Below, one piece after another: positions 10,964-18,512 of a DNA stretch of 49,076 nt (within the stretch, counting starts at the first letter, position 1; each line of letters opens with the position of its first letter). A program made the position numbers and the translations under genes. A model generated the notes under the pieces. It worked only from the letters and a program-made list of their open reading frames with translations, made no database searches and was not told where the DNA came from. The stretch comes from Myxococcota bacterium (GTDB lineage: Bacteria > Myxococcota_A > UBA9160 > UBA4427): contig JAPYTP010000019.1 in the NCBI GenBank assembly GCA_029941885.1, forward strand, positions 1 through 49,076, given 5' to 3'.

Positions 10964-11464
10964 ATGAGCGCAGAGGAAGTCACTCCCGCCGAGCCGGAAG
11001 GCGCAGGCCTCAATATGACGGAGCTGCTGCCTGACCTGTTCGAGCGCTTCTTCGCCTTTTTTCGACCCGCTCACACCGAGGGCGTGGCGCCAAGCCGAAT
11101 CAAGGAACTCGCTCGGATCAAGATCGCGGCCTTGAACGGTTGCGACACTTGACTGTTCGCACGCTACGCGTCGGCGACGCGTCAAGGACTCGACGAAGAG
11201 ACGATTGCCCAGATCCACAAACCGCTTGCGGAGCGCACCCTCGAGCCGCGGGATGGCCTGGCGGTTCGGTTTGCTGAAAAGCTCGCAACGGATTTCAGGG
11301 CTGTGGATGCCCCCTTCATGGCGGAACTCAGGGAACATTTCAACGACGCGGAAATCGCGGAGCTCGGGCTCATGATCGGTCAGTACATGGCGCTCGGCCG
11401 GATGCTCGTCATCTCGGGCGGTCATCACGCGGCGTGCGAAATCTACGAGGCGCCCGGAGGCTGA
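10964..11464 (+). CDS. carboxymuconolactone decarboxylase/AhpD-like selenoprotein (CxxU)
   Basis: The gene starts at ATG 10964, with AAGGAGG 7 nt upstream, and reads 62 codons to TGA at 11150-11152. The same frame then continues without a stop to TGA at 11462. Read through, it gives 166 residues with U63 in NGCDTU-LFARYAS. CMD/AhpD-like proteins have NGCxxC at this point, followed by an F-A-x-x-A helix, so the TGA replaces the second redox Cys. The part after the TGA is clearly the rest of the same domain (REHFNDAEIAELGLMIGQY, then GRM). An immediate hairpin fits a SECIS. AhpD-like selenoproteins are known in some bacteria. The likely role is thiol/peroxide redox chemistry; the partner is unknown. 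Confidence 0.88.
11166..11182 (+). promoter_or_regulatory. putative bacterial SECIS hairpin of the CMD selenoprotein
   Basis: ACGCGTC at 11166-11172 pairs perfectly with GACGCGT at 11176-11182, leaving a GGC loop. The loop begins 20 nt after the TGA, and its first base is G. Bacterial SECIS elements are stem-loops inside the coding region just 3' of UGA with a G near the start of the apical loop; both the spacing and the G match that model. Binding by SelB is inferred. Confidence 0.72.
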
Positions 11465-16701: not shown

Positions 16702-17904
16702 TCAGCCCTCCGCAAAATCACTCAGTTCCGGCCCGATCCGATCGACCAGGGGGGCCAGCTTTTCAGCATCGATGTCGTACACGCGAACCGCGTTGCCGGA
16801 CAGGATCGCGGCAAGGTCCTGCTCCGGAAGTCCGCGAAGCGTATCGGTCATGACGGACCGTGTACGCGGCCATGAGCCCTCCGGGTGCGGATAGTCGGAG
16901 CCCCACATCATGCAATCGAGTCCGAGAGCGTCGCGCTCGACGGCTTCGCGGCGGTCCATCACCGACGCCCCAACGGCACAATTCCGGTAGAAATACTCGC
17001 TCGGCGCCATCTTGAGATGACTCGTGTAGTCCCCCATCTTCGCGTTGATCTGATGTGCGCCGTAACGATGGTCCATCAATCGCGTCCACTCCCCGACCCA
17101 CATGCACGCACCCTCGGTCACGACCGCTCGAAGCTCCGGGAAACGCTCGAAGACACCACCCCAGATCATGAATGTGAGTGGGCGGGCGAGCCACCAACCC
17201 GCCTCCGTCGCATAGATCCCGACCGCCCCGACCGGAACCGAACCGTCGGCCTCCGGCATGAAGAAATCCTCGCGCGGTGCCGGCCCGGAATGGAAGTGGA
17301 CGACCATCTTCTCTTCGACGCAGGCCTGCCAGAAGGGGTCGTATCGCTTGGAGTGATAGGCCGGAAACTTGCCCCACATCGGCGGAATCAAGACTCCGCC
17401 GAGGCCACTCTTTCGGGCCCAGCGGACCTCCTTGATCGCCTCGTCGATGTCCCAGAGCAGGGGCACGACGGCGAGTCCGATCCGCCGCTCCGGCACCATC
17501 TGGCACAACTCCGCGAGCCAGCGGTTGTGTGCGCGTGCGCCCGCCCATTGTTGTTCGGGCACGACGCCCTCGGTCCCGAGCCCCAGGCCCGCATCGAAGG
17601 GAGGCGTGTTGTGCTCGGTCACTCCGTCGGGAAAGATGACCTCGACCGCGATGCCGTCGCCGTCGAGGACCTTGATGCGCTGGTCGTGATCCCAGGCGCC
17701 CTCGAGCATGTCCCAGTTCTCGTCCTTCCAGACGGTATTGAATTCGTCGACCATGAAGAGCTTCGCGGCCTCCTTCCGCAAAGCGATCTCCGCGGCCAGC
17801 GCCGTCTTGAAGGCCTCGCGAAACGAGGGGTCCAGATACTCGCCATATCGCTCGGGCGGCAATCCGGCGTGGCAATCCGAGGACACGACGAGTAGGCGGC
17901 TCAT
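16702..17904 (-). CDS. amidohydrolase family (Amidohydro-rel) metal hydrolase/decarboxylase
   Basis: A 400-residue TIM-barrel protein of the amidohydrolase-2 group. Probable metal or active-site residues are SSDCHAG at the N-terminus, VVHFHSGP in mid-protein, the VTEGACMWVGEW strand, and MWGSDYPHPEG near the C-terminus, whose Asp is the conserved last barrel ligand. This group includes ACMS decarboxylase-like and orotate/aromatic acid decarboxylase-like enzymes, so either hydrolysis or non-oxidative decarboxylation is possible. Its ATG overlaps the stop of the peroxiredoxin selenoprotein (ATGA), implying translational coupling, so full expression of this gene may depend on UGA readthrough upstream. 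Confidence 0.9.
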   Translation of the reverse strand: MSRLLVVSSDCHAGLPPERYGEYLDPSFREAFKTALAAEIALRKEAAKLFMVDEFNTVWKDENWDMLEGAWDHDQRIKVLDGDGIAVEVIFPDGVTEHNTPPFDAGLGLGTEGVVPEQQWAGARAHNRWLAELCQMVPERRIGLAVVPLLWDIDEAIKEVRWARKSGLGGVLIPPMWGKFPAYHSKRYDPFWQACVEEKMVVHFHSGPAPREDFFMPEADGSVPVGAVGIYATEAGWWLARPLTFMIWGGVFERFPELRAVVTEGACMWVGEWTRLMDHRYGAHQINAKMGDYTSHLKMAPSEYFYRNCAVGASVMDRREAVERDALGLDCMMWGSDYPHPEGSWPRTRSVMTDTLRGLPEQDLAAILSGNAVRVYDIDAEKLAPLVDRIGPELSDFAEG

Positions 17905-18512
17905 CGACTCTGCTCCTTTGTCTTTTCTGTCGTCATCGCTGTCGGCGCACGGCTCGATGACTTCCTGAAACCAAGTTTCGCGAGCTTCTCGACGATGTCC
18001 TGACCGGCACTTTCCGGCTTGACGTCCTTGTCGATCTCACGAAGCGTACCGGTCTCGTCGATATAGAACGTCCAGCGCTTCGAGTACAGACCCCCGAAAC
18101 CGATCACGCCGTATCGCCGTGCCGTCTCGCCTTCTGGATCGCTCAAGACTGGAATCTGCGTCTTCATTGCAGCTGCGAACTCCGCGTTCTTTTCCGGGGT
18201 GTCGAGACTCACGTAGAGAATTTCGACATCGTATTCTGCGAGATCCTGGGCGCTGTCACGCAGCGCTGCGAGTTCGGTCGTTCAACCCGCCGTGAACGCC
18301 TTTGGGAACCAGGCGATCACGACACCCTTCCGACGGACCTCGGACGTGACCTTCGAAGCGACCTCGGGAGCGATATAGTCGGCCAGCCGGTAGGTCGCGC
18401 CGTCCTCGCCCTGAAAGTTGAAATCCGGGGCCGGTGCGCCCACTTGGGGCGCCGCCAAGGCGACCCCAGGCAGCAGCGCAAGCAGCCCCACGAGAAGGAT
18501 TCGAATACGCAT
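17901..18512 (-). CDS. exported peroxiredoxin selenoprotein (AhpC/BCP type, Sec at peroxidatic position)
   Basis: Translation from ATG 18512 gives a signal peptide (cleavage near ALA-AP, residue 21), then [13 protein letters not shown] and [17 protein letters not shown] follows at 18284-18282, and the same frame continues to 17901 (203 residues in all). Peroxiredoxins have FxxxxFTxxC here, so U77 takes the place of the peroxidatic Cys. The region after the TGA is plainly peroxiredoxin: [16 protein letters not shown], then [17 protein letters not shown], then WTFYIDETG. No Cys remains, consistent with a 1-Cys enzyme. A GAAGG sits about 8 nt before the ATG; an in-frame GTG is two codons earlier. 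The likely role is reduction of peroxide outside the cytoplasm. Selenium-containing peroxiredoxins are known in some bacteria. Confidence 0.88.
18250..18266 (-). promoter_or_regulatory. putative bacterial SECIS hairpin of the peroxiredoxin selenoprotein
   Basis: In the sense direction GCGCTG (18266-18261) pairs with CAGCGC (18255-18250) around the loop CGTGA (18260-18256). The loop starts 21 nt after the TGA and has G in the second position. Spacing and loop G agree with the bacterial SECIS model and with the other candidate in this window. An overlapping 4-bp hairpin is possible closer to the TGA. Confidence 0.68.

Follow-up and report, generated by a model that had tools for sequence, protein, structure and literature searches.

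A predicted exported selenocysteine peroxiredoxin with a covarying SECIS-like hairpin in a Myxococcota lineage

Standard annotation divides in two a peroxiredoxin gene located in the window, i.e., the whole 49,076-nucleotide stretch of DNA analyzed here (contig JAPYTP010000019.1 of the Myxococcota bacterium assembly GCA_029941885.1). The locus raises the question of whether the in-frame TGA that splits the gene encodes selenocysteine (Sec), in which compartment such a product would act, and what reduces a lone extracytoplasmic Sec. The following features were considered:

16702..17904, minus strand: amidohydrolase gene (PF04909, 2e-29; synteny)
17901..18512, minus strand: predicted Sec peroxiredoxin gene (translation, PF00578 and PF08534 matches, homologues)
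18250..18266, minus strand: bacterial SECIS-like hairpin (6-bp stem; 5-nt loop CGUGA starting at nt 22 after the TGA)
18282..18284, minus strand: in-frame TGA, predicted Sec77 at the peroxidatic position of PxxxTxxU (site invariance; rows with TGA or Cys codons)
18453..18512, minus strand: putative N-terminal signal peptide, residues 1-20 (hydrophobic stretch, n-region charge, ALA/AP, crude criterion)

Reading frame and distribution of the in-frame TGA

When the TGA is taken as Sec at residue 77, the minus-strand gene 17901..18512 specifies a product of 203 residues with the local sequence P-K-A-F-T-A-G-U at this site, and its final stop is a TGA at 17903-17901. A first-pass annotation had claimed that one frame passes through TGA 18284-18282, between FPKAFTAG and TTELAALR, and both the frame and the coordinates were correct. 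The product matched the Pfam families AhpC-TSA (PF00578; 6.1e-28, 97.7 bits compared to a gathering score of 26) and Redoxin (PF08534; 8.8e-15), and both matches span the TGA. The nearest solved structures include Bcp/PrxQ peroxiredoxins; a single-sequence structure model of the protein reached a pLDDT of 41 and was too poor for use. P70, T74, residue 77, and R146, which we take to be the peroxiredoxin active-site set, were invariant in 39 aligned rows, and R146 is likely the catalytic arginine.

To follow the codon in relatives, we looked for family members in two genome sets, one of 79 genomes from the order and one of 377 from the phylum. The order search gave 42 matches in 39 of the 79 genomes (≤1e-15), all of which were read. 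Two of them, L059 and L060, are Bcp-like proteins outside the family and were left out, so that 40 order rows were retained, with TGA at the aligned codon in 33 (31 genomes) and TGC in 7. A profile search of the 377 phylum genomes yielded 8 further rows outside the order at ≤1e-50, followed by a gap to 1.7e-36; five of the eight have TGA and three have TGC or TGT. All 48 family rows therefore have either Sec or Cys at the site (TGA in 38, TGC/TGT in 10). The listed Sec rows of the order share 43 to 74% identity with the window protein and keep the frame past the TGA. The first-pass annotation had placed Sec at the peroxidatic position of a peroxiredoxin and had named homologues with Cys aligning elsewhere as an objection; their Cys falls exactly at the TGA. 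A search of plasmids returned only distant Bcp-like proteins with <60% identity.

If the TGA were a real stop in a broken or split gene, or an assembly error, the two ORFs of 78 and 103 amino acids obtained with the standard code would be the natural annotation. However, TGA occupies the same codon in 38 rows, the frame is kept downstream, the only alternatives at the site are Cys codons, and the hairpin described below is frozen at synonymous sites, so that we consider this explanation extremely improbable. The TGA common to 38 rows led us to reject a pseudogene, a sequencing error, and an ordinary stop alike; an error in one sequence, the concern raised earlier, cannot explain it.

In a tree of 53 rows, the 48 family rows group together (support 100/99). 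One clade of five Cys rows lies well inside the Sec rows (support 100/96), a position that implies replacement of Sec by Cys. The other five Cys rows form a second clade beside distant Sec rows; the deeper branching order is uncertain because of the long branches. The seven Cys homologues of the order (L033, L038, L053, L055-L058) have the same exported-looking architecture as the window protein and a Cys aligned at the Sec site, but carry TGC in place of TGA and have lost the SECIS loop; L055-L058 contain a second Cys four residues on. Three further proteins from the order and the class (L097, L098, L099) are separate, cytoplasmic-type Sec peroxiredoxins of the Bcp type, paralogues without a signal peptide that have a Cys five residues after the Sec and different downstream codons. 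They were left out of the hairpin and site counts.

The SECIS-like hairpin and the selenocysteine machinery

The hairpin downstream of the TGA has the sequence GCGCTG-CGTGA-CAGCGC, with the arms at 18266-18261 and 18255-18250 and the loop at 18260-18256. The 6-bp hairpin of the first-pass annotation was recovered as described there, with 21 nt between the TGA and the loop and G as the second loop base. According to PMC13188914, the bSECIS model comprises a loop of 3 to 9 nt with G among its first two bases and generally G or U as the next one, a stem of 4 to 16 bp, a distance of 16 to 37 nt from the UGA, and an energy of ≤-7.5 kcal/mol. The window hairpin fits these constraints (5-nt loop with G as the second base, 6-bp stem, 21 nt from the UGA, -8.8 kcal/mol). 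For the hairpin alone, 22 of the 33 order Sec rows reached ≤-7.5 kcal/mol and eight lay at -6.9 to -7.3 kcal/mol; the values for L034, L046, and L049 were -5.4 kcal/mol.

The 54 nt from the TGA onward fold into this hairpin. When a 71-nt stretch including sequence upstream of the TGA was folded, the minimum-energy fold differed and was no better than shuffles (z 0.13), and the energy of the window hairpin was not unusual among synonymous variants encoding its own peptide (p 0.117). It is the comparative evidence, and not single-sequence folding energy, that carries the claim of a SECIS-like element. All 38 Sec rows carry a stem of 5 bp or longer at the exact position, compared to 2.3 rows expected from resampled synonymous codons, and 2 of 10 Cys rows carry a comparable stem, compared to 0.24 expected; as the rows are related, these expectations are not probabilities. 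The loop is CGUGA or CGGGA in every one of the 38 Sec rows and in none of the 10 Cys rows, and Cys rows with Arg at this place use CGC. The published preference for G followed by G or U (PMC13188914) would explain why the Arg codon is never CGC in the Sec rows.

Codon use pointed in the same direction. Codons +6 to +10 after the TGA read (GCG/TCG) CTG (CGT/CGG) GAC (AGC/AGT) in all 33 order Sec rows, and the z values for codon sharing above family codon use were 14.9, 12.6, 9.8, 5.3, 12.8, and 5.2 for codons +6 to +11. In the rest of the region from -13 to +30, z was at most 3.0 except at -5 (3.1), +24 (3.1), +1 (4.7), +25 (9.4), and +26 (4.7). The Ser codon +25, which lies outside the hairpin, is AGC or AGT in 29 of the 33 order Sec rows. 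As AGY and TCN codons interconvert poorly, AGC at both +10 and +25 may be partly due to inertia.

The consensus stem is (G/U)-C-G-C-U-G / C-A-G-C-G-(C/A). At its column pair 19-35, 18 rows have G-C and 12 have U-A, the pair being broken in another 3; the switch occurs by a joint Ala/Ser and Ala/Glu change. Both stem sides were changed in 22 cells, compared to 9.4 in shuffles, and 85.2% of the stem cells pair, compared to 77.5% after shuffling (reached in 0 of 500 shuffles) and 14 to 53% when the sequences were slid. In the most distant Sec rows, L095 and L096, the loop is kept and the closing pair is C-G in place of G-C, which corresponds to a change of Leu CTG to CTC together with a change of Asp GAC to Glu GAG. 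As covariation of the SECIS stem proceeds by way of amino acid changes, the family offers a clean example of RNA structure shaping protein sequence.

The source genome is a draft of 6.65 Mb in 500 contigs (92.44% complete, 6.19% estimated contamination). It encodes SelA (528.8 bits), SelB (304.7 bits), SelD (264.6 bits), and a tRNA-Sec (67.4 bits), all above the curated cut-offs. ARAGORN classified the tRNA as SeC with the anticodon tca; these genes sit on contigs other than that of the window. Absence of SelB, an objection named by the first-pass annotation, does not apply to this genome. SelA was found in 75 of the 79 genomes of the order. A match to RF01852 was found in 68 of them, or in 63 when five genomes (G002, G010, G012, G014, G076) are set aside that have only matches near 5e-9, which may be tRNA-Ser. 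Matches of this strength were left out of the tRNA-Sec counts because a similar one in the source genome is a tRNA-Ser according to ARAGORN. Sec rows occur in 31 genomes of the order, and each of these has SelA (30 genomes), a tRNA-Sec at ≤1e-11 (25 genomes), or both. Six of the seven order Cys rows occur in genomes that also carry SelA, and their Cys is therefore not explained by loss of the machinery.

These results also bear on the idea that a changed code or a suppressor lets UGA be read as Cys, Trp, or another ordinary residue. As homologues have Cys at the site, decoding as Cys would likewise yield a working enzyme, but the genome holds the full Sec machinery, including the tRNA with anticodon tca, the SECIS-like loop is kept only where TGA is present, and the gene itself terminates with TGA. 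Ordinary decoding therefore appears hardly conceivable, and a changed genetic code was rejected in view of the Sec machinery and the hairpin. We infer that Sec is inserted at residue 77.

When the hairpin model (R1) was run against the source genome, the only strong match was the gene itself (67.7 bits); by eye, none of five weak matches (≤21.7 bits) showed a convincing read-through frame. Within the window, the model gave one real match. An ORF with a CMD domain (PF02627, 6.5e-8) at 11015-11461 on the plus strand contains C-D-T-U (CxxU) across an in-frame TGA at 11150-11152 and is probably a second selenoprotein gene of the window, 7 kb away.

Predicted export of the product

The first-pass annotation had also claimed a signal peptide. 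The window protein does begin with a signal-peptide-like N terminus, as judged by a crude home-made rule and not by a trained predictor: the n-region has a charge of +2, a hydrophobic stretch of 11 residues has a mean of 2.85, and cleavage is likely after A-L-A in ALA/AP. In the order, 27 of 32 Sec rows and all 7 Cys rows passed the rule, compared to 8 of 43 ORFs of the window; L050, whose N terminus is masked, was left out of these counts and of the cysteine counts below. Five Sec rows failed: L031 and L036 narrowly, L049 with a long start choice, and L047 and L051, which look cytoplasmic. The latter two are second Sec peroxiredoxin copies (in genomes G034 and G033, respectively) without a hydrophobic N terminus and are likely cytoplasmic paralogues. 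By eye, the starts of L095 and L096 are lipobox-like (LTAAAC and LAAAC). As the window protein has no twin-arginine motif, the general Sec translocon is the likelier route.

Taken together, the N-terminal features suggest that the window peroxiredoxin is exported. A location in the cytoplasm, or attachment to the inner membrane through an N-terminal helix that stays uncleaved, has in its favor the crude nature of the rule and the existence of L047 and L051, which indicate that the domain probably can work in the cytoplasm. Against it stand the N-terminal charge, the hydrophobic stretch, and the A-x-A site in most members, the failure of 35 of 43 window ORFs under the same rule, and the lipobox-like starts of the distant L095 and L096, which also mean export. 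An uncleaved helix with its N terminus inside would, moreover, still put the domain outside. We regard both variants as improbable.

Selenoproteins outside the cytoplasm, such as periplasmic formate dehydrogenase and NiFeSe hydrogenase, are known. The earlier remark on an unusual compartment for a Sec peroxiredoxin is therefore only partly justified, although no description of an exported Sec peroxiredoxin was found in the openly accessible papers searched.

Cysteine content, proposed mechanism, and known relatives

Apart from Sec, the window protein contains no Cys. In 30 of 32 order Sec rows no further Cys is present beyond residue 25; the two exceptions with an extra Cys are L043, where it lies in the signal region, and L054. 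In the rows of the second Cys clade and in L095/L096, the site is followed by a Cys at a distance of four residues (CxxxC or UxxxC). Plausibly, a resolving Cys was lost in the branch of the window protein, or else it was gained in the other. A mature protein without Cys has no internal resolving residue, and an outside thiol or a thioredoxin-fold reductant would be needed.

We propose the following mechanism. SelB and Sec-tRNA would bind the hairpin 21 nt past the UGA, and Sec would enter at residue 77. The precursor would be exported via its signal peptide, probably through SecYEG, and act in the periplasm or outside the cell. There, P70, T74, and R146 would position Sec77 so that its selenol attacks peroxide and turns into a selenenic acid. 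Reduction of the latter would fall to an outside thiol or to a partner with a thioredoxin fold, in the manner of 1-Cys peroxiredoxins. Considering the conserved frame and site, the hairpin, and the predicted export, we hold it to be highly probable that the product is a peroxiredoxin which acts outside the cytoplasm through a single catalytic Sec, with the UGA decoded via the hairpin and an outside thiol as the reductant. An exported protein with a thiol-disulfide or signaling role instead of peroxide removal would be in line with weak matches to ResA-like and SelL-like families and with the lack of a peroxidase partner gene nearby. Yet the Sec lies in PxxxTxxU together with the invariant peroxiredoxin P, T, and R, a CxxC-type partner residue is missing, and the best matches are Bcp/PrxQ, which makes such a role unlikely in our judgment.

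A wider proposal, for which we see the chances as evenly balanced, is that of an order-wide lineage of exported, otherwise Cys-free single-Sec peroxidases that descends from relatives bearing a resolving Cys and needs an unrecognised periplasmic reducing system. In this lineage, codon and residue choices (Ala/Ser at +6 coupled to Ala/Glu at +11; the Leu codon coupled to Asp/Glu at +9) would evolve so as to maintain the SECIS stem. Export of the enzyme as such would place a selenium-dependent peroxidase outside the cytoplasm in a large bacterial group with SelA in nearly every genome examined.

A resolving Cys five residues after the peroxidatic position is usual in Bcp but absent from the window protein. 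The best NCBIfam match of the window protein was the Bcp/PrxQ thiol peroxidase NF006960, with 66.7 bits compared to a cut-off of 140. PrxU (NF040737, thioredoxin-dependent peroxiredoxin), to which the Eubacterium acidaminophilum enzyme reported by Sohling (2001) is presumably linked, shares Sec at the peroxidatic position with the window protein, and the latter scored 45.1 bits compared to a cut-off of 270. As both scores are below the cut-offs, membership in NCBIfam PrxU or Bcp was rejected.

The enzyme class of Sec peroxiredoxins is already known, and its TxxU type is long established. Metagenomic studies list 43 such sequences with TxxU in the Sargasso Sea (PMC1088965) and 253 in GOS (PMC2398784), and Sec-containing peroxiredoxin (Prx, PF00578/COG1225) is included in the reviews PMC9312934 and PMC13188914. 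The proteins of these four papers, as described in the accessible parts, resemble the window protein in the domain, TxxU, and a bacterial SECIS after the UGA; unlike for the window protein, export or total loss of Cys is not mentioned there. In the four texts, "signal peptide" occurs 0 times and "periplasm" twice, in PMC9312934 only and in an unrelated context. It is by these descriptions that the family is set apart from the Sargasso and GOS Prx, and some of those sequences may belong to it. As far as the literature was searched, an exported, Cys-free form that is order-wide and has a covarying SECIS seems not to have been described previously.

Neighborhood synteny revealed no conserved partner gene hinting at the reductant. 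Flanking genes are common within the genus and mostly not beyond; they include an acyl-CoA dehydrogenase gene, and two more genus-shared ones presumably encode a Sua5-like protein and a WS/DGAT-like protein. The ATG of the amidohydrolase gene overlaps the stop of the peroxiredoxin gene (ATGA), and the two genes are probably co-transcribed; this neighbor is conserved in just one other family member, L019. Upstream of the peroxiredoxin start, at 18563-18541 on the minus strand, TAGCAC and TTGCCGC blocks are present at a similar distance in all seven genus members read (the window and L019-L024) and represent a putative promoter or regulator site.
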